Shown here: positions 4,590 to 63,278 of the stretch, one piece after another | Layout of the letters: each line of letters begins with the position of its first letter | Position numbering within the stretch: position 1 is the first letter of the stretch | NCBI RefSeq assembly: GCF_001403635.1 | Contig: NZ_LN879468.1 | Location: forward strand, 682,001-746,000 | DNA length: 64,000 bases | Direction of reading: 5' to 3' | Source of the DNA: Clostridium massiliamazoniense | Lineage (GTDB): Bacteria; Bacillota; Clostridia; Clostridiales; Clostridiaceae | The notes under the pieces: model-generated | What the model was told of the DNA's origin: nothing | What the model saw: only the letters and a program-made list of their open reading frames with translations | Database searches by the model: none | Translations under genes and position numbers: made by a program

Positions 4590-5205
4590 AAATAAAATAC
4601 CTCCATATACACAAATAAAATGTTCAAATAAATTTTAGCTTTTATTACTTTCTGATTAAATTATACTATATAAATTTATCTACACTATTAAAATTACTTT
4701 AATATATTTAAACATTTTCTAAAACTTATAGTTTCTTATTTATTAACAACATCTTATTCAAAGTAAATTTTCATTCAAAAATCAATTCATAATTTGCAAA
4801 ATTATATAAAAAGTTTTATTATATATATTGAATATTAACAAAATTATACTTGATTTTTATGTGATTTTTTATTTAAAATTTATCTCGAGTTTAACCTATA
4901 AATATATAATTATTTCAAATTAATTTAGATATAAAACTTAAGTCAGATAGAATTTTGACTCTAGCTGTATTTTAGCCGAAGTTATCTAAAAAACTGTTTC
5001 CGTTTATCTTAGGCTTATAAAAGACTTAAGTATTACAAAAACTAATGATCAAAAAATAAAATTATTTTATTAAAGATTATAATATCTTTCAATTATATAA
5101 GGTTATATTAACTTCTCTTGATGAATATACAAATACACTCATCAATTAGTAGATAGATAAAATCATAAGTTGTAGATAGATAAAAATAAGTTAAGGAGAA
5201 ATTAA
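4590..5205. other. Intergenic region between divergent genes
   Basis: This 616-bp gap separates the Nudix gene (minus) from the TPR gene (plus). It is very AT-rich and holds one T2 repeat copy (4933-5062). Near 5150-5185 the string TAGATAGATAAAA occurs twice about 20 bases apart, just before the ribosome binding site AAGGAG of the TPR gene. I see no gene in either strand. Confidence 0.6.
4933..5062 (+). repeat. T2 two-hairpin repeat, copy 1
   Basis: Shares with the copies at 8251 and 33081 the string TTTTGACTCTAGCTG, then a GAAGTTATCTAAAAAACTGT segment, a self-complementary centre (TATCTTAGGCTT with AAGACTTAAGTA), and the end ACTAATGATCA. The arms differ from the other copies but remain largely pairable. 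It lies about 145 bases upstream of the TPR gene, in the same orientation. It could be transcribed in that gene's leader; this is inference. Confidence 0.75.
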
Positions 5206-6584: not shown

Positions 6585-6809
6585 GAGGATGTATCAAATT
6601 ACAGATACATCCTCTCTGCCTTTTATCTAGCTATATAGGTTCATCATTTGTGACCACTTACTTACGTAAAGAAGCTCTAATATTTTTTCTACAATAGTTT
6701 CTAGTGCTAGTTCAATGGTCACAGCATTTTGTACCTATATAGCTATCTCGGCAAATGAAAAAATATATTTATAAAAGTAATATAAATTAAGTGATTGTTT
6801 GATACAACC
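6585..6809 (+). repeat. T1 terminator-type repeat, copy A, with nested M element
   Basis: Starts 26 bases past the TPR stop codon. GAGGATGTATC (6585-6595) pairs perfectly with GATACATCCTC (6604-6614), followed by CTGCCTTTTATCT. The element continues to a terminal TTTGATACAACC near 6809, an imperfect third copy of the arm. An M element (6628-6745) interrupts it, so this copy is longer than copies B and H. It probably terminates the TPR gene. Confidence 0.85.
6628..6745. mobile_element. M element (MITE-like palindrome) inserted in T1 copy A
   Basis: Ends are inverted repeats: TAGCTATATAGGT on the left and ACCTATATAGCTA on the right, extending inward as imperfect repeats through GTGACCA and TGGTCAC. 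It contains no coding sequence. T1 copies B and H have the uninterrupted TATATAGCTATC sequence at this point, so they serve as empty sites. CTATATAG occurs on both sides of the insert, consistent with a target duplication, though the palindromic target makes the exact edges ambiguous. Confidence 0.8.
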
Positions 6810-6850
6810 CAGTCCTTTTATTTAATCATATAATCTTATTAATTTTTACT

Positions 6851-8222: not shown

Positions 8223-8250
8223 CTTAAAGATCACTTACTTCTAGAAGGTT

Positions 8251-8391
8251 TATAAACTAAGACTTAATCTACATAGAGTTTTGATTCTAGCTGAATTAAA
8301 TCAAAGTTATCTAAGAACCTGTGTCTGTTTAACTCCAGCTTATAGAAGCTTTAGTTTTACAGACACTAGTCATCAGATAAAAAATATTTAT
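8251..8391 (+). repeat. T2 two-hairpin repeat, copy 2
   Basis: Typical copy: AAACTAAGACTTAAT, then a small hairpin (TTTGATT with AATCAAA), then a larger one whose base is TGTGTCTGT with ACAGACACTA and whose top pairs CAGCTT with AAGCTT. It ends in TAGTCATCAGATAAA. It abuts the PyrR leader of uraA, so the uraA promoter must lie inside or beyond it. Confidence 0.8.
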
Positions 8392-8525
8392 TTCTATTTA
8401 AAATTAATATTTTCTTATAAGCCTCACAGGACCTATTTAAAGAACTTTCCATTTCTTTATTGAATTATAACATTAGTTAAAATAGCTGTATATAAATTTC
8501 TTGTTAACTTTTTATAAACTATCAC

Positions 8526-8789: not shown

Positions 8790-8912
8790 AACAATCCCTT
8801 CTTATTAAATAAAACTCATATACTATAATTATTTTAAAATTCTTCTTACTATTACAAAAATTAAAGGGATATACCAAAATAAATTGATATACCCCAAATA
8901 AGTTAACTTATA

Positions 8913-15884: not shown

Positions 15885-16213
15885 TTCTAATCCTCTTTCA
15901 CTTAAGTTATAAAATTTAATAAATCATTAAATTGTTTTTTTATCTATGTTTAATTTTATTATATATCACCTCTTTTGTCTATTTTATCTAATAGCTTGTT
16001 TCATTGTTATATCCTTTCTTCACAAATTAAAATAAATATTATTGTGTTTTTATATAATTTATTATTACAAAATAACGTAAAAACTGAATGGACTCTATCA
16101 AATCAACACCTTAATTTACATTACTTTTATAAATATATTTTTTTCATCTGCCGAGATAGCTATATAAAAGCAGAGAGGATGTATCTGTAATTTGATACAT
16201 CCCCTCACTTGCA
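15885..16213. other. Intergenic region upstream of hemA
   Basis: Contains a minus-strand TATAAT (15963-15958) that could serve the hem operon, without a convincing -35 box, and T1 copy B at its right-hand end. I looked for a cobalamin riboswitch and saw none of its conserved box. The rest is AT-rich with no coding signal. Confidence 0.5.
16090..16204 (-). repeat. T1 terminator-type repeat, copy B (no M insertion)
   Basis: Near-complete copy in reverse orientation. The hairpin is GAGGATGTATC with GATACAT plus CCCCTC (bulged), 16175-16207. CATCTGCCGAGATAGCTATATA shows the joined sequence that copy A has interrupted. The far end, GGACTCTATCAAATC at 16090, is the distal inverted arm. The hairpin lies just past the stop of the minus-strand gene ending at 16214, so it probably terminates that gene. 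Confidence 0.8.
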
Positions 16214-16828
16214 CTATTTTCTTTTTAAAACAAGAAAAGTTAAATCATCAAATAATTTATTTTTCTTTCCCTTAAGATTTCCTAGTAAAAATGGACATAA
16301 AACAACTGGTCCTATACTACCTGTTATTATATCTTTCATTGTATCAAGTAAACTTCCTCCTTGAGAACTCAACCCTAAAAGTTGATCACCTGCAAACTCC
16401 CATATTTCCCAAAGAGCTGTCATTGCTATGGCAAATAATACACAATAAGTAACAACTAATGTTGGATTAACATTTTTAACTTCACCTTTATTTTGTACAA
16501 TAAATACAACATAAGCAACTAAAAATATTATAAAACCTGAAAGAGTATGTAAAAATGTATCCCAATGAGGAACTTTTCCATAAAATCCATTAAGTCTACC
16601 TAAAAACATTGATACAAATATAAAAAATTGAACTAAAAATTTCAAAAATGTAGTAGCATTAAAATTAAATATTTTCATAAGCACCCTTGGCGCTGCAATA
16701 ACTACTAAAGTTAGTACGCCATTTAAAGAATACATATACTCCTTACTAATCACTCCATAAATAACATAGCCTAAAGTTCCTATATACATAAGAAATTCTA
16801 AAACCTCATCATAACCTATTCTTTTCAC
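16214..16828 (-). CDS. Integral membrane protein, DUF2238/YjdF-like
   Basis: 204 aa with five or six hydrophobic segments. Conserved polar motifs lie between them: [24 protein letters not shown] and [14 protein letters not shown], a pattern I associate with the YjdF/DUF2238 family. The buried His, Asp and Glu residues suggest a metal- or lipid-binding site, but function is unknown. It overlaps the upstream GIY-YIG gene by 20 bases, so the two form an operon. Confidence 0.7.
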
Positions 16829-17216: not shown

Positions 17217-17360
17217 TCATAATAGAACTATTTTCCATCCATTTATAGTTGATTTTGCTATGCTGTATTCACTACTTATTTCTGTTACACTCATTCCAGA
17301 ATTGTATAAATCAGAAATCATTTCTTTATATTCATCTGTATAATTTTTACCTCTACCCAT
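17217..17360 (-). pseudogene. Remnant of IS3-family transposase orfA
   Basis: 47 codons from ATG (17360) to a stop (17217) give MGRGKNYTDEYKEMISDLYN and, after SGMS, VTEISSEYSIAKSTINGW. This is the helix-turn-helix start of an IS3-type OrfA, which is normally about twice as long and followed by an OrfB integrase. No orfB is present. Upstream, the minus-strand string AGTGGACACATTTAATCGAA near 17400-17422 resembles an IS end. The piece is therefore a decayed fragment, not an active element. Confidence 0.75.
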
Positions 17361-22182: not shown

Positions 22183-22239
22183 ATTAACTCAATTTTAAAG
22201 GAATCTTATATAAGTATTTTACTCTTTAGTTGTATAATT

Positions 22240-22373
22240 TTTTTCTGATAGCTAGAGGCTGTAATACTCCTATCTTCTATAAGTAGGAGCTAAACATCCT
22301 CACGCTTCTAGATAACTTTGACTAAGCATTCAAATGGAATCAAAACTCCTCCTGAATTAAGTCTACGTTTATC
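22240..22373 (-). repeat. T2 two-hairpin repeat, copy 3 (reverse)
   Basis: Read on the minus strand: ATAAACGTAGACTTAATTCA, then TTTTGATTCC with TTAGTCAAAG, then a strong hairpin, CTCCTA with TAGGAG, enclosed by GAGGATGT with ACAGCCTC. It ends CTCTAGCTATCAGA. Its first bases contain the stop codon of the small gene ending at 22369. It therefore lies in that gene's 3' untranslated region. Confidence 0.8.
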
Positions 22374-22542
22374 TTATCTTTGACATCATTTGATCGTAGC
22401 CATCTCCTAAAGCACATAAAGCAACTCTACTAGCTTTTTTTATTTTTCTTTGGGTCTTTCTATCTAGGGTTGGAACCATCATAACACCTATAGTTGCTCC
22501 AACTATAGTTCCTGCTGTTATTCCCATTAGTACTTTTCCCAT
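22369..22542 (-). CDS. Small YtxH-like protein
   Basis: 57 aa: a glycine-rich hydrophobic N-terminus (MGKVLMGITAGTIVGATIGV) likely to span or enter the membrane, then a basic helical tail (DRKTQRKIKKASR). The form resembles YtxH/gas-vesicle-like small proteins, though it is too short for a firm call. GAGGTG sits six bases before the ATG at 22542. The stop codon falls at the edge of a T2 repeat, so the C-terminus may have been set by that insertion. Confidence 0.65.
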   Translation of the reverse strand: MGKVLMGITAGTIVGATIGVMMVPTLDRKTQRKIKKASRVALCALGDGYDQMMSKIR

Positions 22543-22636
22543 ATTTAACACCTCTTTTTTAATTTATTTCAGTGTTATTTTTACCATTATATCGTTACTT
22601 ATGTTAGTGTATTTTTGGAATATAACTTAATATTTC

Positions 22637-24989: not shown

Positions 24990-25019
24990 AGGACTGTATG
25001 CACTTTTTCATACAGTCCT
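24990..25019 (-). terminator. Terminator after pepF
   Basis: AGGACTGTATG pairs perfectly with CATACAGTCCT (11 bp), loop CACTTTTT, seven bases after the pepF stop on the minus strand, preceded on the plus strand by an A-run that gives the T-tail. Confidence 0.85.
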
Positions 25020-26820: not shown

Positions 26821-26870
26821 AAAAACATCCTTTCTTTATCTTATTATTTTTTTATCATTTAATTATAAAA

Positions 26871-26935
26871 CTATGAAACTGTTTATCTCTTACTTATAAA
26901 AAATAAAAATATTATAACTTCTAGTCGTCAAATAA
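26871..26935 (+). repeat. T2 repeat, degenerate right half
   Basis: ATGAAACTGTTTATCTCTTACTTATA and the following CTTCTAGTCGTCA match the right half of the T2 consensus, with several changes that weaken the stem. It lies upstream of pepF, in the opposite orientation. Confidence 0.5.
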
Positions 26936-29404: not shown

Positions 29405-29465
29405 GAGGATGTATCAAATTACAGATACATCCTCTATGCCTTTTATCTAGCTATATAGGCATATG
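29405..29465 (+). repeat. T1 terminator-type repeat, copy C (truncated)
   Basis: GAGGATGTATC pairs with GATACATCCTC (29405-29434), 11 bases after znuB. It continues through ATGCCTTTTATCTAGCTATATAGGC and then breaks off. It joins a T2 fragment in the opposite orientation (29480-29513). Confidence 0.8.
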
Positions 29466-29479
29466 AAAAAATATATTTA

Positions 29480-29513
29480 TCTGATAGCTAGAGGCTGTAA
29501 TACTTCTTTCTTT
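29480..29513 (-). repeat. T2 repeat fragment at the 3' end of the Fur-family gene
   Basis: CTGATAGCTAGAGGCTGTAA is identical to the distal 20 bases of T2 copy 3. It sits between T1 copy C and the Fur-family stop codon. The two fragments together form a chimera with neither full element. Confidence 0.6.
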
Positions 29514-32807: not shown

Positions 32808-33244
32808 ACTACCTACCTCCACTATATTTTATTCAAAATAGCACCATATAGTTACCATTTATATGATTTCCCTTATTAACTTTCTAGTAATTTGAACTTA
32901 AGATTCTTTATTAGTATAATTATTAAGTAATATATCTTTAGTTATTTTTACTTAATAGCTATTTTAAAAATATATTCTCAAAATATATTTTTAAAAAGTT
33001 ATAATATTTTATACCTAAAGATTATTACTCTATAAAAAACAAATTAAAATGACTTAATTTGTTTTAAAGATTATAGACTTTATATAAACTAAGACTTAAT
33101 TCACATAGAATTTTAACTCTAGCTGAAATTTAGTCAAAGTTATTTAAAGAACTGTGTCTGTCTATGTCTAGTTTATGGAATATTGAAAACAGACACTAGT
33201 CATCAAATAAAAATCTCTTAGGATTTAAAGGAGTTAAATATATT
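32808..33244. other. Intergenic region with T2 copy 4
   Basis: About 430 AT-rich bases between divergent genes. Apart from the T2 repeat at 33081-33215 I see nothing distinctive. The repeat ends about 30 bases before the ABC-F start codon, with AAAGGAG between them. Confidence 0.5.
33081..33215 (+). repeat. T2 two-hairpin repeat, copy 4
   Basis: Very like copy 2: AAACTAAGACTTAATTCACA, TTTTAACTCTAGCTGAAATT, AGTCAAAGTTATTTAAAGAA, then CTGTGTCTGT with ACAGACACTAG as the base of the larger hairpin. The central stem is weaker than in copies 2 and 3. It lies immediately upstream of the ABC-F gene in the same orientation. Confidence 0.8.
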
Positions 33245-35186: not shown

Positions 35187-35332
35187 AAGGTGCTGTATCA
35201 AATCAGCACCTTGATAGAAACTGTTATAGAAAAAATATTAGAGCTTCTTTACGTAGTGAGTGGTCACAAATGGTGAATCTATATAGCTAGATAAAAGGCA
35301 GAGAGGATATATCTGTAATTTGATACATCCTC
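35187..35332 (-). repeat. T1 repeat copy D with remnant M element
   Basis: Reverse orientation. One end is a hairpin, AAGGTGCTG with CAGCACCTT (35187-35212), straight after the ABC-F stop; the other is GAGGATATATC with GATACATCCTC (35303-35332), near the dut stop. Between them a half M element is visible (AAGCTTCTTTACGT... and GTGGTCACAAATGGTGAA, ending in CTATATAGCTAG), the other half being deleted. It separates convergent genes. Confidence 0.75.
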
Positions 35333-38176: not shown

Positions 38177-38251
38177 TCATAGAAAAGAGATTATTTCAGA
38201 CAATTTCTAAATATATCATTTTATAGTTATTTTTCTTCATCTACCCAAATT

Positions 38252-38333
38252 TAATCTAGAAGCATGAGACTGTTTATCTCCTACTTATAGAAGATAGGAA
38301 TATTACATCCTCTAGATATCAGATAAATCTATA
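38252..38333 (+). repeat. T2 repeat, right half only
   Basis: AATCTAGAAGCATGAGACTG then TTTATCTCCTACTTATAGAA and GATAGGAATATTACATCCTC match the right half of copy 3. The stem CTCCTA with TAGGAA and GAGaCTGT with ACAtCCTC is largely preserved. The left half is missing. Confidence 0.68.
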
Positions 38334-38342
38334 TGAAAAATT

Positions 38343-38379
38343 AAAGGTTGTATGTCCATACTTCGGACATACAACCTTT
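38343..38379. terminator. Bidirectional terminator between HlyIII-like and LysR genes
   Basis: Perfect 15-bp stem, AAAGGTTGTATGTCC with GGACATACAACCTTT, loop ATACTTC. It lies between convergent genes, seven bases past the LysR stop. Confidence 0.88.
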
Positions 38380-39705: not shown

Positions 39706-40398
39706 ATGTTAAAAAAATTATCAATATTTATTTTTTCGTTTTTTTTCATTGTTTTTAATCAAATAACCTATGTTTATCCCTTAGAAAATCAACCTAAAGT
39801 AATTTATTTAACCTTTGATGATGGACCTAGTAGTAATACTGATAAAATCCTTGATATTTTAAAAGAAGAAGAGGTTTGTGGCACATTTTTTTTAATGGGT
39901 AAACTTATTAATAATAGTCCTACTACTGTTAAAAGAATCTTTGACGAAGGCAGTGCTATAGGATTACATTCTTTTAGCCACGAAAGATGTATATATAATT
40001 CTAAAGAAAAATTTTTAGAGGAAATGCTTAAAACTCAAAAGATAATTGAAAATATAATTGGAGAAAAAGTTTGTATAATTAGATTTCCTTTTGGAACAAA
40101 TAATATGTCATTTAAGCTTAAAAATGATTGGGTAACTTTACTCCATGAAAATTCTCTTAAAATTTATGATTGGACTCAAGATACTGGTGATGGAACCAAT
40201 GTTAATCTTGCACCTAACTTAATATTCAAAAATTCTATATCTAAAGATAATAATATTGTTTTATTAATGCATTGTGCTGAAGCTAATAATAATTCTGTAA
40301 AAGCCTTACCAGAAATAATAAAATATTACAAATCTAAAGGTTATGAATTTAAAACAATCACTCCTGATACTCCAGAGTTGTATAAAGTAAAAAAATAA
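39706..40398 (+). CDS. Secreted or anchored polysaccharide deacetylase
   Basis: 230 aa. The N-terminus (MLKKLSIFIFSFFFIVFNQI) is a signal peptide or anchor. The NodB domain has TFDDGPSSNTD (motif 1, metal and catalytic Asp) and HSFSHE (motif 2), then RFPFGTNN. It probably removes acetyl groups from cell-wall or sporulation peptidoglycan, like PdaA. AAAGGTGG precedes the ATG at 39706; the longer GTG frame is unlikely. A second deacetylase lies at 52.5 kb. Confidence 0.9.
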   Translation: MLKKLSIFIFSFFFIVFNQITYVYPLENQPKVIYLTFDDGPSSNTDKILDILKEEEVCGTFFLMGKLINNSPTTVKRIFDEGSAIGLHSFSHERCIYNSKEKFLEEMLKTQKIIENIIGEKVCIIRFPFGTNNMSFKLKNDWVTLLHENSLKIYDWTQDTGDGTNVNLAPNLIFKNSISKDNNIVLLMHCAEANNNSVKALPEIIKYYKSKGYEFKTITPDTPELYKVKK

Positions 40399-41733: not shown

Positions 41734-42096
41734 ATTTATTCCTCCTTAGTAATCATGTAAAAATTTCCTAATAGCTATGTTTTTAATATTAAATAACTAT
41801 AATTATTGCTTTTATCAAAATATTTTACTTGCTTTAAAATAAATTTAAATTTCTTTTTATATGTCATATTATATACTATAAAGCTTTTTTATTCCGTATC
41901 CTTTGTTACCAAATTATATAGGTAATCTTTATTTTATATATAGAAGAAAAACTTACTGCATTAAATCAACTTCTTTATAACTTTTGTACCTTAGGTAAAC
42001 TATGAAATGTTAAACCTATATAACTAATTTAAAAGCAAAAGGGATATATCTATAAGTTCGATACATCCCCTAAGCTTTTTTAATATATAAATTAAA
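41734..42096. other. Intergenic region with T1 hairpin
   Basis: About 360 AT-rich bases before the gene ending at 42097. The only feature I see is the short T1-type hairpin near the right end (42041-42069). Confidence 0.5.
42041..42069 (-). repeat. T1-type hairpin, copy E (hairpin only)
   Basis: GGGATATATC pairs with GATACATCCC with one mismatch over a 9-base loop, 28 bases past the stop of the small gene ending at 42097. The rest of T1 is not present. Confidence 0.6.
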
Positions 42097-42252
42097 TTAT
42101 TCTTCTTCCACTTCTATTGTATTTTCAACAAATTCATCTTCTTGATTTTCTTCTAAATTTTCATTATTTTTTTTGTCATAAGCAATAGCTGCAGCAAATG
42201 CAGTAGCTGCTGCTAATAACATTAGTGCTTTACCTTTTTTTATTTTAAACAC
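42097..42252 (-). CDS. Small protein with hydrophobic N-terminus and acidic tail
   Basis: 51 aa from GTG (42252): MFKIKKGKALMLLAAATAFA followed by an acidic tail (ENLEENQEDEFVE). The basic start plus hydrophobic stretch suggests a membrane anchor or signal sequence. GGTG lies six bases before the GTG. It is too short to appear in most reading-frame lists but has a ribosome binding site and a terminator-like hairpin. Function unknown. Confidence 0.55.
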   Translation of the reverse strand: MFKIKKGKALMLLAAATAFAAAIAYDKKNNENLEENQEDEFVENTIEVEEE

Positions 42253-42344
42253 AAGCTTCACCTACCTTAACTAAATAAATATATAATTTATAGTTCTTTA
42301 ATATTTTTTAGGTATTTATTATGGGCTTATACTCTAATAATATT

Positions 42345-43494: not shown

Positions 43495-43683
43495 TTACTT
43501 AAATTGGTTTAAATTCTTATTATATTCAAATCCAGCTTTCCCCAAAGTTTCTTCTAATTGTTTTCTATCTATATTATTATCATCACATAAGCTATCTAGA
43601 GAACCATAAAAATCTCTAAGCTTTAAGTTTATAATACTATATAACATTAAGGGATCCATTTCCTTAAAATTACTAATTTCCAT
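43495..43683 (-). CDS. DUF4250 family small protein
   Basis: 62 aa, the usual length of DUF4250, with MEISNFKEMDPLMLYSIINL and NIDRKQLEETLGKAGFEYN. GGAGG precedes the ATG at 43683, eight bases away. Function unknown. Confidence 0.75.
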   Translation of the reverse strand: MEISNFKEMDPLMLYSIINLKLRDFYGSLDSLCDDNNIDRKQLEETLGKAGFEYNKNLNQFK

Positions 43684-43890
43684 TTTGTTATCCTCCAATT
43701 AGAAATTTAATTTCTCTTATTTTAAATTTAATTTTATTTATTTTCTATTATATATTACTTCAATGACTTCTACAAATATTTTATATTTTTTATTAACAAA
43801 TTTAATAAAAGTGCATATATTATTATTATCTAATTGCTTTTTATTCTCAAAACTCATACTATCACTTGTTATTTTATTTTTCTCAAAGAA

Positions 43891-43915
43891 AAGGGCTATG
43901 TTCACCATAGCCCTT
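43891..43915. terminator. Terminator after the 63-residue gene
   Basis: AAGGGCTATG pairs with CATAGCCCTT over a 5-base loop, followed by a T-run on the plus strand and A-run before it, so it works in both directions. It lies just past the stop at 43923. Confidence 0.8.
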
Positions 43916-43922
43916 TTTCCTT

Positions 43923-44108
43923 TTATTTCACTTCTTTTATTGATTTTATTATTTCAGACTCTATTAACTCTGATTTAGAAAACCCTTTTTTAAAGTATCT
44001 TATTTGTTTATACTTTATTCCACCCATTTCAAAATCTAAAACATCAATTCTATCACCTTTATAAACTACCTTTTCATTTTTACCTTTTAATTCTATAATT
44101 AATTCCAT
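43923..44108 (-). CDS. Small protein, function unknown
   Basis: 61 aa, basic and acidic mixed (ELIIELKGKNEKVVYKGDRI). It looks like a small beta-rich soluble protein. GGAG lies about seven bases before the ATG at 44108. It is followed by a good terminator and preceded by a small membrane protein gene in the same direction. No family recognised. Confidence 0.6.
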   Translation of the reverse strand: MELIIELKGKNEKVVYKGDRIDVLDFEMGGIKYKQIRYFKKGFSKSELIESEIIKSIKEVK

Positions 44109-44126: not shown

Positions 44127-44291
44127 CTATTTTTTATTTCTAATTATTCTAAAACCAATTAAAACGCCTAAAACTATTAATGAAACTAAAATTACTATAC
44201 TACCTTCATAAAAAAAGTATATTAATAGCCCTATTATTAATCCTAGAAATCCTAGTGCTGCTGGCCATATATATTGTTTAGCTTTATCCAA
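44127..44291 (-). CDS. Small two-helix membrane protein
   Basis: 54 aa from a TTG at 44291: MDKAKQYIWPAALGFLGLII then a second hydrophobic helix (GSIVILVSLIVLGVLIGFRI) and a basic end. GAGG lies ten bases upstream. A GTG three codons earlier lies against the ribosome binding site and is unlikely. It is short and lacks an ATG, so it is easy to miss. The two downstream minus-strand genes may share its transcript. Function unknown. Confidence 0.55.
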   Translation of the reverse strand: MDKAKQYIWPAALGFLGLIIGLLIYFFYEGSIVILVSLIVLGVLIGFRIIRNKK

Positions 44292-44393
44292 TCCATCCAC
44301 ACCTCTATTCTAAAATCTTAATGAATTCTATTCCATTATGCCATTTTTATTGATATATTTGAATAAGAATATTAAATTTAGGAGGTTATAAAA

Positions 44394-47117: not shown

Positions 47118-47175
47118 GAGGATGTATCGAATTACAGATACATCCTCTTTGCCTTTTATCTAGCTATATAAAAGA
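47118..47175 (+). repeat. T1 terminator-type repeat, copy F (truncated)
   Basis: GAGGATGTATC pairs perfectly with GATACATCCTC (47118-47147), followed by TTTGCCTTTTATCTAGCTATATA and then unrelated sequence. It lies 14 bases past the ddl stop, convergent with the next gene. Confidence 0.8.
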
Positions 47176-47505: not shown

Positions 47506-47617
47506 ACTTAATATTCCATATTTACATACTATCTTTAAATTATATTATTTCAACACATTAATTAAGACCAATTTTCCTTAAAAGCTTTCCATAAATATAT
47601 TTAAGAATAGCTAAAAG

Positions 47618-47658
47618 GCAGAGTGAATGTACCTATAATTTTCATACATCACTCTGCC
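47618..47658 (-). repeat. T1-like hairpin, copy G
   Basis: GGCAGAGTGAATGTA pairs with TACATCACTCTGCC with two mismatches. It ends 12 bases past the TtcA-like stop, so it acts as that gene's terminator. The sequence keeps ATGTA and TACAT of T1, but the stem base is different. Confidence 0.65.
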
Positions 47659-50748: not shown

Positions 50749-52332
50749 ATGATTACGGTAACTAATGTAAGTTTAAGATTCGGTGAAAGAAAATTATTCG
50801 AAGATGTTAATTTAAAATTTACTCCAGGAAATTGTTATGGTGTTATTGGTGCTAATGGTGCTGGTAAATCAACTTTCCTAAAAATACTAGCTGGAGAAAT
50901 TGAAGCTAATACTGGAGATGTCTCTTTAGCTCCAAACTCAAGAATGTCTGTACTTAAGCAAGACCATTTCCAATATGATGACTGTGAAGTATTAAAAACA
51001 GTTATGATGGGAAATGAAAGATTATTTCAAATTATGGAAGAAAAAGATGCCCTATATGCAAAAGCTGATTTTTCAGATGAAGATGGTATAAGAGCTTCTG
51101 AACTTGAAGGCGAATTTGCTGAAATGGGTGGTTGGGAAGCTGAATCAGATGCTTCCTCATTATTACAAGGTTTAGGAATCGGAACAGAACTTCACTATAA
51201 AACTGTTGGTGAATTAACAGGTGATGAAAAAATTAAAGTTCTTTTAGCTCAAGCTTTATTTGGTAAGCCTGATGTACTTATCCTAGATGAGCCTACTAAC
51301 CACTTAGATATTAAAGCTATAGAATGGCTTGAAAACTTCCTTGCTAACTTTGAAGGAACAGTTATAGTTGTATCCCACGATAGACACTTCTTAAATATGG
51401 TATGTACTCATATTTGTGATGTTGACTTTGGTAAAATAAAACTTTATGTTGGAAACTATGACTTCTGGTATGAATCAAGTCAATTAGCTTTACAAATGGC
51501 TAAAGATCAAAACAAGAAAAAAGAAGAGAAAATCAAAGAACTTCAAAACTTTATTGCTAGATTCAGTGCTAATGCATCTAAATCTAAACAAGCAACTTCA
51601 AGAAAGAAACTTCTTGATAAAATAACTCTTGATGATATTCAACCATCAAGCAGAAGATATCCATTCGTTGGATTTAAACCAGAAAGAGAAGTTGGTAACG
51701 ACGTTCTTATGGTAGAAGGTTTAACAAAAACAGTTGATGGTGTTAAAGTTCTAGATAATGTTAGCTTTATCCTAGGAAGAGAAGATAAAATAGCATTCGT
51801 TGGAGATGAAATAGCTATCACTACTCTATTCCAAATCCTTATGGGAGAAATGGAACCAGATGCTGGATCATATAAGTGGGGTGTAACAACTTCACAATCA
51901 TACTTCCCTAAAGACAATACAGAATACTTTGAAGATTGCGATTTAACTCTTGTTGATTGGCTTAGACAATACTCAGAAGAGAAATCAGAAAGCTACTTAA
52001 GAGGATTCCTTGGAAGAATGTTATTCTCTGGAGAAGAAGCTTTAAAACAAGCTAAAGTATTATCAGGAGGAGAAAAAGTAAGATGTATGTTATCTAAAAT
52101 GATGCTTAGCTCAGCTAACGTTATTATCTTAGACCAACCTACAAACCACTTAGACCTTGAATCAATAACAGCAGTAAATAATGGTCTTATGGATTATAAG
52201 AGCGTAATATTATTTGCTTGTCACGATCACCAATTCGTTGAAACAATTGCTAATAGAATAATTGAAATAAATGATGGTGCTGTTAAGTTCAATAAAGAAT
52301 GTACTTACGATGAATATTTAGAAGCTAAATAA
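50749..52332 (+). CDS. ykpA: ABC-F ATPase, YkpA/YbiT type
   Basis: 527 aa, two ABC domains, no membrane segment. Domain 1 has Walker A GANGAGKST but signature LTGDEK instead of LSGGE. Domain 2 has signature LSGGEKVRC and Walker B LDQPTNHLDLE, but its Walker A is GDEIAITT, with no lysine. From memory YkpA of Bacillus shows the same losses, so they are family-typical. Such proteins act in translation. C-ending codons are common, as in a well-expressed gene. A T1 hairpin follows. Confidence 0.88.
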   Translation: MITVTNVSLRFGERKLFEDVNLKFTPGNCYGVIGANGAGKSTFLKILAGEIEANTGDVSLAPNSRMSVLKQDHFQYDDCEVLKTVMMGNERLFQIMEEKDALYAKADFSDEDGIRASELEGEFAEMGGWEAESDASSLLQGLGIGTELHYKTVGELTGDEKIKVLLAQALFGKPDVLILDEPTNHLDIKAIEWLENFLANFEGTVIVVSHDRHFLNMVCTHICDVDFGKIKLYVGNYDFWYESSQLALQMAKDQNKKKEEKIKELQNFIARFSANASKSKQATSRKKLLDKITLDDIQPSSRRYPFVGFKPEREVGNDVLMVEGLTKTVDGVKVLDNVSFILGREDKIAFVGDEIAITTLFQILMGEMEPDAGSYKWGVTTSQSYFPKDNTEYFEDCDLTLVDWLRQYSEEKSESYLRGFLGRMLFSGEEALKQAKVLSGGEKVRCMLSKMMLSSANVIILDQPTNHLDLESITAVNNGLMDYKSVILFACHDHQFVETIANRIIEINDGAVKFNKECTYDEYLEAK

Positions 52333-52339
52333 TAAAAAA

Positions 52340-52461
52340 GAGGATGTATCTATAATTTGATACATCCTCTTTGCCTTTTATCTAGCTATATAGCTATCCC
52401 AGCAGATGAAAAAATATGTTTATAAAAGTAATATAAATTAAGGTACTGATTTGATACATCC
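52340..52461 (+). repeat. T1 terminator-type repeat, copy H (complete, no insertion)
   Basis: GAGGATGTATC pairs with GATACATCCTC (52340-52369), eight bases past the ABC-F stop. It continues through TTTGCCTTTTATCTAGCTAT, the joined ATATAGCTATCC site, GATGAAAAAATATG and on to TGATTTGATACATCC, ending at 52461. The last arm is a third copy of GATACATCC, so the first arm can pair with either. It is about 122 bp long. Confidence 0.85.
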
Positions 52462-52502
52462 TTTTTTTTGCTTAAAGACTAAATAATACAAATTTTATTT
52501 TA

Positions 52503-53363
52503 TTAGTTGATTCTTTTAAAAATATATCCTTCTGAATTAAAGTAATCTATGATTTCTGGAAGCATTTCTACAGTTTTTTCTTTCCCTTCTCTATCATGCA
52601 TAAGAACAACTACATATTGTTTACCTTTTGCAGTTTTCTTCACATAATTTATCATTTCCTCTTTAGTATAGGGCTTTCCTTCAGCATCCCCATTTAAAGA
52701 ATTCCAATCTATATTTTTTATATTTTCTTCTTCAAACTTTTTATTGAGTTCTGGCAAATTTGGATCATGATAATACTTCCTGCTTCCATAGCCACCTGGC
52801 ATACGTATTAATATATTTTCACAATTTCTTTCTCCAATTAGTTCATTTAAAACTTCCTCTGTTTTTTTAACCTCTTCTAAAAATGAACCTACTTGAACTT
52901 TATTATTCTTATATATCTTTGAAAAATCATGACTATATGTATGATTACCTATACTATGCCCTGCTTCATATAATCTAAGTAATCTTTCCTTATTTTCTCC
53001 TAAAGATAATCTTTCTCCCACCACAAAAAATGTAGCCTTTACCCCTTTATCATTTAATATGCTTATTATTTTATCTGTATTAACACTTGGTCCATCATCA
53101 AAGGTCAAAAAAACAATTTTTTCATTTTTCAAAGGTCCTTCATAGATATTCTTTAACATTAATTTCACGTCATCTACATCAATAGCCTCATCCACTGTTG
53201 GCCCCCCACAAGTTACACCTTCTTTTGTAAAAAAGTCATCTCTTTTCACTGTGAAATTTTTGTATCCTAAATTTAAACTACTAAGAATAAATCCTGCACA
53301 TAGTAAAATAACTATGTATTTTTTTAACTTTTTTTTACTAATAAATCTACTAATTACACTCAC
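52503..53363 (-). CDS. Polysaccharide deacetylase, membrane-anchored
   Basis: 286 aa. An N-terminal hydrophobic segment (about residues 15-32, IVILLCAGFILSSLNLG) is an anchor or signal. The NodB domain has FLTFDDGPSVNTD, HTYSHD, then RMPGGYGS and the late LMHDREGKE. It would deacetylate GlcNAc or MurNAc residues in the wall or a polysaccharide. It is monocistronic, with T1 copy H as the convergent terminator. Confidence 0.9.
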   Translation of the reverse strand: MSVISRFISKKKLKKYIVILLCAGFILSSLNLGYKNFTVKRDDFFTKEGVTCGGPTVDEAIDVDDVKLMLKNIYEGPLKNEKIVFLTFDDGPSVNTDKIISILNDKGVKATFFVVGERLSLGENKERLLRLYEAGHSIGNHTYSHDFSKIYKNNKVQVGSFLEEVKKTEEVLNELIGERNCENILIRMPGGYGSRKYYHDPNLPELNKKFEEENIKNIDWNSLNGDAEGKPYTKEEMINYVKKTAKGKQYVVVLMHDREGKEKTVEMLPEIIDYFNSEGYIFKRIN

Positions 53364-55093: not shown

Positions 55094-55777
55094 ATGACGA
55101 GTAAAGAAATTTGTAAAGACATAATTGAAAGTATTATAAGTGGCGAAATACCTGAATGTTCTAAACTACCTTCTGAATCTTCACTTTCATTAAAATATAA
55201 TTGTAATAGACATACTATTAGAAGTGCACTTCAATATTTAATTGAAAGAGGCTATCTTTTAAAAATTCATGGTGGTTCTACTTATGTAAATAAAATTCCA
55301 ACAGAACATATATTAAGTCTTTCTTCAATGTTTGATTTGCATGGAGCAAAAACTTTAAAAAGTAAAGTTTTTTATTTTTCTAAAATTAAGCCCTCCCAAT
55401 TTATATTAGATAAATTAGCATTAAAAGAAGGACAAGAAGTTTTTAAAATAATTAGAGGACGATACATAGATGATACTATTCACCATCTTGAAGAAATTTA
55501 TATGCCTTATTCTCTTTTTCCAAAATTAAATGAATCCAATTGTTATGCTAGCTTACTATCTTATATTGAAGATCAATGTGGCTATGAAATAACCCATAGT
55601 ATAAAAACAATTGAAAGTACTCTATTAAGTGAAGATGAAGCTAGCCTTCTTAACCTAGAACAAAATAAACCTATATTACAAATTTCCAATATAGGTTACT
55701 TAACTACAGGACGAATATACGAGTATTCAATAAATAAGCATATAAATAAAAAAATAGAATTCTTTGCAAAACGCTAG
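55094..55777 (+). CDS. GntR/UTRA family regulator of the GH1 gene
   Basis: 227 aa. The winged helix (about residues 1-65, including LPSESSLSLKYNCNRHTIRS) is followed by a UTRA ligand-binding domain (IIRGRYIDDTIHHLEEIYM, LESI-like end). GntR/UTRA proteins sense phosphosugars. It is divergent from the GH1 gene, with two operator-like sites in the gap. GGGGTGATTTTAA precedes the ATG. M element copy I lies straight after the stop. Confidence 0.88.
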   Translation: MTSKEICKDIIESIISGEIPECSKLPSESSLSLKYNCNRHTIRSALQYLIERGYLLKIHGGSTYVNKIPTEHILSLSSMFDLHGAKTLKSKVFYFSKIKPSQFILDKLALKEGQEVFKIIRGRYIDDTIHHLEEIYMPYSLFPKLNESNCYASLLSYIEDQCGYEITHSIKTIESTLLSEDEASLLNLEQNKPILQISNIGYLTTGRIYEYSINKHINKKIEFFAKR

Positions 55778-55790
55778 TATATATAAATAA

Positions 55791-55980
55791 TAGCTATATA
55801 GGTTCACCATTTATGACTACTCACATACGTAAAGAAGCTCTAACATTTCCTCTACAATAGTTGCTAGAATTTTCAAACTCACTTCGTTCAGACAGTGAAA
55901 ATTCTAGCAACTTTTGATTAGAAATGAAGAGCTTCTAATTACTAGTTCAATAGTCATAGCATTTTGCACCTATATAGCTA
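55791..55980. mobile_element. M element (MITE-like), full-length copy
   Basis: A 190-bp near-palindrome. Ends: TAGCTATATAGG at 55791 and ACCTATATAGCTA at 55980. Inward, each arm has related blocks (CATACGTAAAGAAGCTCTAA and, inverted, ATGAAGAGCTTCTAA). The core is a perfect 15-bp stem, GTTGCTAGAATTTTC with GAAAATTCTAGCAAC (55860-55911), around a 22-base loop. It has no coding capacity. Copy A (6628) is shorter by a central deletion. Confidence 0.82.
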
Positions 55981-55992
55981 TCTTATTAAATA

Positions 55993-56031
55993 GAGGAGTA
56001 TATTTGTAAATGTTATTTTAATATACTCCTC
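55993..56031. terminator. Terminator between GntR and MATE genes
   Basis: GAGGAGTATATT pairs perfectly with AATATACTCCTC (12 bp) over a 15-base loop, seven bases from the MATE stop on the minus strand. It resembles T1 only in its GAGG start. Confidence 0.85.
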
Positions 56032-56037
56032 ATCATT

Positions 56038-57369
56038 TTAAATTCCTTCGTATTTTAATCTTCCATTTAGTACTTTAAATCTATAAACGATAAGTACTAT
56101 AAGACCTTTTGCAACACTTGATATAGAAATACTTATCCATATTCCATTTACTCCAAAATATTTCATTAATATAAGTGCTACAGGTATTCTTAATAAAGTA
56201 CAGCTTATACTTATAGTTGCAGGTATTTTAGGAAGACCTATTCCTGTAAACATACCATTAGATATTATTTCTACAGCTCCAAATACTTGTGATAATCCAA
56301 CTATAATTAAATAATCTGAAGCTATATTTAAAGTAGTGTTACTATTAGTTATAAAAATTCCTGCTAGTTGTTTTGAAAATATAACAAATATTAAAGTTAT
56401 AAATGCCCCATAGATAACACCTAGAAGTAAAGTTTTCATGTATCCATCTCTTATTCTATGTATTTTTTTAGCACCATAATTTTGTCCTGTATAGCTTGCC
56501 ATGGCTCCATTTAATCCACCCATTATTCTTAAATTTAAGGATTCTATTTGTATACCTACTCTTTGGGCTGCTATAGCATCTGCACCGTAGCTTGATATAA
56601 ATCTACCAAGTATTATAGTTACTAAAGTAAATAATGTTCTTTGAGTTGCTATAGGTATCCCTAAACTAACAACATCTTTTATTTTTTCTTTACTTATTCC
56701 ATTACACTTATGGAATCTAAATGGAGAATCCTTAAATGCTAAATATAAAATAAATACTAATAAATTTCCTATTAGTGTGGCAATAGCTGCTCCATAAACA
56801 CCTAAGTTAATTCCATAAATTAATATAGGGTCTAATATTATATTTACTATAATTCCTACAGCACTTATTTTAAGAGCTAGTTGATTATTTCCAAAACTAC
56901 TTAAAATTCTTGAAAATAACATATTGAAAAATGATAAGAAAAGGATTGGACCATTTAATGCTAAATAAACATAAGCATGTTCTCTAACATTTGCATCTCC
57001 AAAATCAAAAAATGCTATTAAATACTTTCCAAGACATAGAAGTATTAATGCATAAACTATCCCTATTAATGCAGTTAAAAAGATACCTACATTCATATAT
57101 TCCTTTATCTCATCTTGCTCTTTTGCTCCAATTGCATGAGCTATTTTAGTTCCTGCTCCAACCATAACTAGTGATGAAATTGAATACCCTAAAGAGACAA
57201 AAAAGCTTGATGTCCCAACTTCAGCAATAGCATCACTTCCTAGATGTCCAACCCAAAACATATCTATAAGACCGTAAGACATCTGAAGCATAGAACTTCC
57301 CATAATGGGTAAAGCTAAGGCTATAATAACCTTAAATACATTTCCAGTAGTTAAATCTACTTTTTTCAT
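56038..57369 (-). CDS. MATE family multidrug exporter
   Basis: 443 aa, twelve predicted helices. N-terminal LALPIMGSSMLQMSYGLIDM then FWVGHLGSDAIA and the later internal repeat GIPIATQRTLFTL are typical. It would export cationic drugs by sodium or proton antiport; natural substrates are unknown. GGAGGAAG precedes the ATG. A palindrome just upstream suggests control by a repressor. Confidence 0.9.
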   Translation of the reverse strand: MKKVDLTTGNVFKVIIALALPIMGSSMLQMSYGLIDMFWVGHLGSDAIAEVGTSSFFVSLGYSISSLVMVGAGTKIAHAIGAKEQDEIKEYMNVGIFLTALIGIVYALILLCLGKYLIAFFDFGDANVREHAYVYLALNGPILFLSFFNMLFSRILSSFGNNQLALKISAVGIIVNIILDPILIYGINLGVYGAAIATLIGNLLVFILYLAFKDSPFRFHKCNGISKEKIKDVVSLGIPIATQRTLFTLVTIILGRFISSYGADAIAAQRVGIQIESLNLRIMGGLNGAMASYTGQNYGAKKIHRIRDGYMKTLLLGVIYGAFITLIFVIFSKQLAGIFITNSNTTLNIASDYLIIVGLSQVFGAVEIISNGMFTGIGLPKIPATISISCTLLRIPVALILMKYFGVNGIWISISISSVAKGLIVLIVYRFKVLNGRLKYEGI

Positions 57370-63166: not shown

Positions 63167-63203
63167 TTTAATCTCCTTATGTAAAATTTATAACTAAAAA
63201 ATA

Positions 63204-63227
63204 GACTGTATCTATTCTGATACAGCC
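63204..63227 (-). terminator. Terminator after the azoreductase-like gene
   Basis: GACTGTATC pairs with GATACAGCC (one mismatch) over a 6-base loop, 52 bases past the stop at 63279. The T-run follows on the minus strand. Confidence 0.6.
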
Positions 63228-63278
63228 CTTATTATTTATATTTTAACATAGATTTAAAAAATTTGCTTAATTATCTTT

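Follow-up and report, generated by a model that had tools for sequence, protein, structure and literature searches.

A small family of dispersed palindromic repeats with a terminator-like end hairpin, positioned just behind stop codons in Clostridium massiliamazoniense

The 64,000-nucleotide stretch of Clostridium massiliamazoniense DNA analysed here, referred to below as the window, has a GC content of 27.3% and carries ordinary chromosomal genes. One of these encodes an ABC-F protein (50749-52332) with 78.3% identity to a Peptoclostridium acidaminophilum protein, its best match in a plasmid-only collection. Behind this gene lies a short repeat, here called T1, of which the window holds nine copies in total, seven clear and two diverged (42070 and 47650). 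The copies are AT-rich, non-coding and 53-232 nt long, and all of them fall in gaps of our gene list, which comprises 59 of the 67 mechanical open reading frames. The eight excluded frames are small (513-659, 8281-8463, 15975-16190, 17217-17360, 22369-22551, 43495-43698, 43834-44064 and 44127-44300); the excluded frame 15975-16190 overlaps the 16204 copy, and the retained frame 42097-42261 favours the 42070 copy. The nine copies are:

6585..6811, plus strand: T1 copy of 227 nt with hairpin, long nested palindrome and tail (fold z -7.3)
16090..16204, minus strand: T1 short form; its start is 10 nt downstream of the stop codon of open reading frame 16214-16828, also on the minus strand
29405..29482, plus strand: T1 short form, which from about 29471 passes into an incomplete copy of the second repeat family described below
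35188..35332, minus strand: T1 copy without the right half of the palindrome; its distal TTTGATA falls within the loop of a separate 9-bp hairpin
41880..42070, minus strand: diverged T1 in which the hairpin and traces of the palindrome arms survive; boundaries approximate and placed by hand (nhmmer E 0.002-0.011, left part)
47118..47170, plus strand: left end of T1 only, with hairpin and first arm
47595..47650, minus strand: probable T1, strongly diverged; extent set by hand
52340..52463, plus strand: T1 copy, an internally deleted short form, named in the first-pass annotation; hairpin 52340-52369, tail to TTTGATACATCC
55786..56017, plus strand (the 55791 copy): T1 that lacks the left hairpin and has the longest of the nested palindromes; left boundary approximate (fold -75.3 kcal/mol, z -9.2)

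T1 is largely real as a small family of dispersed palindromic elements, with a common anatomy, a consistent position behind genes, and short as well as long forms. With up to one mismatch allowed on both strands of the 64-kb window, the word GAGGATGTATC has 14 matches, compared with 0.67 on average and at most 4 in shuffled sequence (0 of 100 shuffles reach 14). All 14 lie inside T1 copies: they include both arms of six hairpins (6585, 16175-16204, 29405, 35303-35332, 47118 and 52340), and the remaining two are one arm of the diverged hairpin 42060 and a third arm at 52453. The copies share 50-200 bases beyond this word, and an nhmmer search of the window with the 6585 copy as query returned seven further places at E values from 5e-25 to 0.003, namely 35332, 16204 and 42070 on the minus strand, and 55791, 29405, 47118 and 52340. 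The minus-strand hairpin at 47621-47650 gave E values of 0.08 with the 6585 query and 0.029 with the 29405 query, and its membership in T1 is probable, not certain. In the 55791 copy the interior parts are retained (55791-56017, nhmmer E 1.8e-12 and 9.8e-08 with the 6585 query) and the left hairpin is missing, so that the hairpin is present in eight of the nine copies. The first-pass annotation had proposed at least eight places with a common hairpin or a clear variant of it; eight are counted here, 42070 and 47650 being diverged.

A fuller copy, as in 6585 and 55791, is about 230 nt long, and four parts of T1 can be told apart on the element strand. The left hairpin, GAGGATGTATC-(8 nt)-GATACATCCTC, has 11 pairs and in most copies the loop AAATTACA. 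It is followed by TNTGCCTTTTATC, by a nested palindrome that opens with TAGCTATATAGGT and closes with ACCTATATAGCTA, and by an AT-rich tail with a terminal TTTGATA; of 6585, 16204, 35332 and 52340, three have the ending TGATTTGATA. The long nested palindrome is carried by 6585 and 55791, is partial in 35332 and is diverged in 42070; fold z-scores are -9.2 for the 55791 region (235 nt, -75.3 kcal/mol), -7.3 for 6585 and -4.4 for the 52340 region. It is gone from 16204, 29405, 47118 and 52340, all of which keep the hairpin; besides 52340, 16204 and 29405 are short forms. In 52340 the first CTATATAG continues straight into the sequence found after the second CTATATAG of 6585, the junction that a deletion between these short repeats would leave. 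We infer that the long form is ancestral and that the short forms were derived from it.

The 52340 copy is distinct in its hairpin as well. Its stem is lengthened to 14 pairs by AAA/TTT flanks, and because the reverse complement of its loop, TATAATTT, matches AAATTACA at seven of eight positions, the hairpin is, to judge by the loop, inverted in place relative to the other clear copies. We read the inversion as a DNA-level event at the palindrome, as if the hairpin had flipped through its own palindrome. Candidate inverted ends are present in 6585, 16204 and 35332, with TATCAAA(T) towards the left end of the element and (A)TTTGATA towards its right end; in 52340 the hairpin is the inverted one. 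Visual inspection of the sequence flanking 6585, 16204, 35332 and 52340, where the element boundaries are uncertain, showed no target-site duplication, and the Pfam and NCBIfam matches listed for 39 distinct proteins of the 59-gene set (30 searched in Pfam and 10 in NCBIfam) include no transposase family.

The position of T1 relative to genes is consistent. Each of the nine copies has its 5' end 8-30 nt downstream of a stop codon on its own strand, and in eight of eight the hairpin too starts, by coordinate difference, 8-30 nt past that stop, the first-pass annotation having given a few to 60 bases; for 42070 this distance rests on the retained 54-aa open reading frame 42097-42261, the next upstream stop being about 411 nt away otherwise. 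Of the ten convergent gaps six contain T1, as do three of the 34 tandem gaps; the ten divergent gaps have none (Fisher p = 0.0005, convergent versus the rest). A test of uniform intergenic placement (p = 3e-11) was set aside as too generous, since convergent gaps are scarcely longer than the elements. Re-placing each element within its gap, at a random position and in either orientation, gave a product p of 9e-5, a value for which gap types and element extents were entered by hand and which owes most of its strength to the three copies in tandem gaps, two of which are diverged and were delimited by hand. The enrichment of T1 at gene 3' ends could reflect tolerance only.

The window also holds a second dispersed repeat family, with a motif near GTTTANCTCCNRCTTATAGAAG, in divergent, tandem and convergent gaps:

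about 4936-5052: second-family repeat
about 8232-8386: second-family repeat
about 22227-22385, opposite strand: second-family repeat
about 26870-26935: second-family repeat
about 33078-33213: second-family repeat
about 38241-38339: second-family repeat

Read from their coordinates, two of the seven places of this family are in convergent gaps, three in tandem gaps and two in divergent gaps. Given this spread over gap types, placement at 3' ends is not general for repeats in the window. One copy of the second family searched against phages and plasmids at E 0.01, and one pattern searched against viral contigs, gave no match. A partial copy at 29471-29512 directly adjoins the T1 copy 29405, and the two may either abut or have arisen by insertion of one into the other. 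Elsewhere, two inverted stretches of 104 nt (39796-39899 and 53017-53120), 72% complementary and both within open reading frames, possibly belong to paralogous genes.

The first-pass annotation had described T1 as a terminator-type repeat dispersed over the 3' ends of genes, a description that our analysis supports, with six of eight hairpins flagged as terminators and all nine copies just past stops. Using a lenient consensus, the terminator scan flagged six of the eight hairpins on the element strand (42070 and 47650 went unflagged) and three of the eight on the other strand. The six flagged hairpins have 11-14 pairs, and six hairpin sequences have folding energies of -14.5 to -17.2 kcal/mol. 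On the element strand T1 has a weak T tract: in most copies TTTT is separated from the 11-pair stem by about 5-6 nt, and four to six of the first eight positions are T. Read on the opposite strand, seven of the first eight positions are T in both 52340 and 35332, the 35332 stem having an A-C mismatch there. In the unflagged 47650 the stem is lengthened by GGCAGAG/CTCTGCC with one bulge, and TTTT follows directly.

In the six convergent gaps with T1 the scan flags no site besides T1, and none at all in 55778-56037, where the copy is without a hairpin; the T1 hairpin is therefore the sole flagged candidate in five of the six. The four T1-free convergent gaps have unrelated flagged hairpins in two cases (24990-25019 and 38343-38379) and none in the other two. 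Judging from these features, the left hairpin of T1 probably acts as an intrinsic terminator in the cell. Among terminator-like hairpins outside T1, those at 8866-8895, 63203-63228 and 24990-25019 have arms with GTATATC/GATAC-like or GTATG/CATAC words.

Substitutions in the stems bear on the RNA level. By reading, the seven hairpins other than 47650 show four single-sided stem changes (one in 16204, one in 35332 and two in 42070), and all four leave a G-U pair on the element strand. As A-C would be equally likely absent selection on that strand, the bias may be a weak hint of selection on the element-strand RNA, for the hairpin only and not for the inner palindrome. A column count gives six one-sided cells, all G-U or U-G and two of them in 47650; four of 88 cells are unpaired, all in 47650, whose columns are one base out of register. 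A stricter comparison of arms counted 3 versus 0 in the hairpins and 6 versus 4 in the inner palindromes. Folding is better on the opposite strand in three of the nine copies, 6585, 35332 and 55791, the two longest among them. Covariation in the hairpin was considered and discarded, as it was not above that of shuffles, 214 of 500 of which were as good. The direction of the wobble changes was likewise dropped as an argument, being weak in the hairpin and giving no signal in the inner palindrome.

Outside the window, BLAST with the 52340 copy against phages and plasmids at E 1e-5 gave no match. With the 6585 copy and E values up to 10, 105 plasmid and 99 phage records were returned, none covering 80% of the query; the best 20 of the 105 plasmid and the best 20 of the 99 phage matches cover at most 22% of it, nearly all in the AT-rich tail, and among the matches listed the best E values are 0.2 (plasmids) and 0.07 (phages). 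Six T1 patterns found 0 stretches in viral contigs. A 20-mer from five T1 copies (6585, 29405, 35332, 47118 and 52340) found one stretch in a collection of genome contigs, in Pseudoalteromonas; it was rejected as a relative, since its surroundings are unlike T1 by eye, and counted as chance. Because a 20-mer found in five of nine copies should give many matches in the same species, that collection presumably lacks the species. T1 is apparently restricted to a narrow lineage, which fits with the lack of a convincing match in the phage, plasmid, viral and genome-contig collections searched. Rfam has 0 matches in the window above the gathering threshold; at E up to 1 there are 15 matches in 52300-52500 and eight in 55770-56040, all far below gathering scores, and T1 was rejected as a known RNA family on those scores. 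A literature search returned no description of T1 among the matches listed, and of 21 papers containing one of its 11-mers, the 15 listed look unrelated by their titles and the starts of their abstracts.

The closest known functional analogue of T1 appears to be the pneumococcal SPRITE, with 30 dispersed terminator-like repeats in one Streptococcus pneumoniae genome (PMC3049150). SPRITEs have their strongest enrichment between convergent genes and near gene ends, are suggested to have been co-opted as terminators, and showed no similarity to the ends of pneumococcal IS elements (PMC3049150). Both families are small, dispersed, AT-rich and of narrow lineage, with a terminator-like hairpin and no partner IS identified, and both are enriched at gene 3' ends and in convergent gaps (for T1, six of ten convergent gaps versus three of 44 others). 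However, SPRITE has an 18-bp duplex, a long T-rich tract (about 48% U) and AAAA/TTTT ends (PMC3049150), whereas most T1 stems have 11-14 pairs, the T tract of T1 is weaker and its fuller copies include a nested palindrome. Since the stem, the T tract and the large palindrome differ, we do not file T1 as a SPRITE, from which it is set apart by the description of SPRITE and not by its sequence, but it appears to work like one.

T1 fits a MITE in size, base composition and placement, and a MITE review calls terminator formation by MITEs conceivable and cites SPRITE (PMC10969869). BOX, RUP, Correia/NEMIS and ERIC elements are, like T1, short and interspersed with strong palindromic folds, some with size variants, and for several of them terminal inverted repeats and target duplications are reported (PMC3049150, PMC2229807). 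In pneumococcus, BOX and RUP lie less predominantly in convergent gaps than T1 does in the window, with 16 and 23 there versus 70 and 65 upstream of a gene, and BOX has a mean density of 0.057 per kb (PMC3049150), compared with about 0.14 per kb for T1 in the window (nine in 64 kb).

On balance, T1 is probably a small, non-coding interspersed repeat of the MITE-like kind that is apparently confined to one lineage and whose end hairpin is an intrinsic terminator. Under this scenario copies would be dispersed by transposition in trans and would settle just behind stops, mostly in convergent gaps, where an added hairpin would be least harmful or beneficial. The left hairpin and the surrounding T-rich DNA would then terminate transcription of the preceding gene and, in some copies, of the convergent gene too. 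Short forms such as 52340 would have arisen by deletion inside the palindrome, in 52340 with a junction between the two CTATATAG repeats.

A clearly less likely alternative is that T1 is a purely parasitic MITE-like repeat that survives behind genes as harmless and has adopted no terminator role. The T tracts of T1 are weak and its copies differ in the parts that they keep, 47118 having the left end only and 55791 no hairpin, as such a repeat might. In pneumococcus, moreover, the enrichment of BOX, RUP and IS elements in convergent gaps has been read as possible tolerance of parasitic elements (PMC3049150). However, the hairpin is retained in eight of nine copies as the first thing after the stop codon, and the six T1-bearing convergent gaps have no other terminator-like site, the T1 hairpin being the only candidate in five. 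T1 could also be a structured 3'-UTR element that does not terminate transcription but stabilises or processes the mRNA, for instance as an RNase III site or an exonuclease barrier. Its palindromes are long and stable, and NEMIS and ERIC are reported to influence how adjacent transcripts are processed or how stable they are (PMC2229807). This role is rather improbable for T1: it is the palindrome that was lost and the hairpin that was kept in 16204, 29405, 47118 and 52340, and the convergent gaps with T1 show no other flagged terminator.

The first-pass annotation went further and proposed that 6585, 16090 and 52340 share a tail with a third GATACATCC, and that the first arm can pair with either the near or the distal arm. 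The shared tail is present in all three, but an exact GATACATCC is found only at 52340. The distal ends read GATACAACC in 6585, GATAGAGTCC in 16204 (minus strand) and GATACAGCACC in 35332; the end common to the named copies is TTTGATA, after the conserved AT-rich tail, and 29405 and 47118 are without a distal arm. The switching fold did not hold up, as forced distal pairing is less stable than the best fold in four of four copies tested: -28.4 versus -34.3 kcal/mol in 52340 (5.9 worse), -55.1 versus -61.6 in 6585 (6.5 worse), -24.6 versus -30.8 in 16204 (6.2 worse) and -29.3 versus -40.5 in 35332 (11.2 worse). An attenuator or riboswitch-like assignment was rejected accordingly, no conserved competing fold having been found, with the distal fold 5.9-11.2 kcal/mol worse and the arm missing in 29405 and 47118.

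That T1 is nonetheless a switching RNA, in which alternation of the first arm between near and distal partners makes a regulated terminator or 3'-UTR switch, is very unlikely. A distal helix is possible in 52340, with a duplex of -16.0 kcal/mol and eight T after it, and complementarity of the TATCAAAT/ATTTGATA type is present in 6585, 16204 and 35332. However, transcription reaches the near hairpin first, the third arm is exact in one of the three named copies, and the distal motif of 35332 sits in its own 9-bp hairpin. Because the distal fold is worse, the near hairpin is transcribed first and the distal arm is inexact or absent, we see no support for a switch; the third arm more probably represents a repeat at the end of T1 than an arm with a regulatory role.

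DNA uptake signals are expected singly and in coding DNA as well. It is most improbable that T1 hairpins are pairs of such signals acting as terminators, as in Neisseria and Pasteurellaceae, where closely spaced inverted uptake words form the same stem in many terminators of one genome (PMC1852404), since in the window all 14 matches to the T1 word lie inside T1 copies, none outside the elements, and the copies have long flanks of 50-200 bases in common beyond it.

Returning to T1 as a MITE-like repeat with a terminator at its end, it is possible but doubtful that it also works as a mobile terminator, spreading behind stops and replacing or supplying the terminators of a sizeable share of transcription units. 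If the density in the window held throughout, a genome of 3-4 Mb would have several hundred copies, an extrapolation from one window. Should the hairpins terminate transcription, T1 would be an example from beyond the streptococci of an interspersed repeat providing genes with terminators at their ends, and would indicate that terminators can turn over by copying and not by point mutation. The long, short and hairpin-less copies of T1 are natural variants that may show which part of the element matters.
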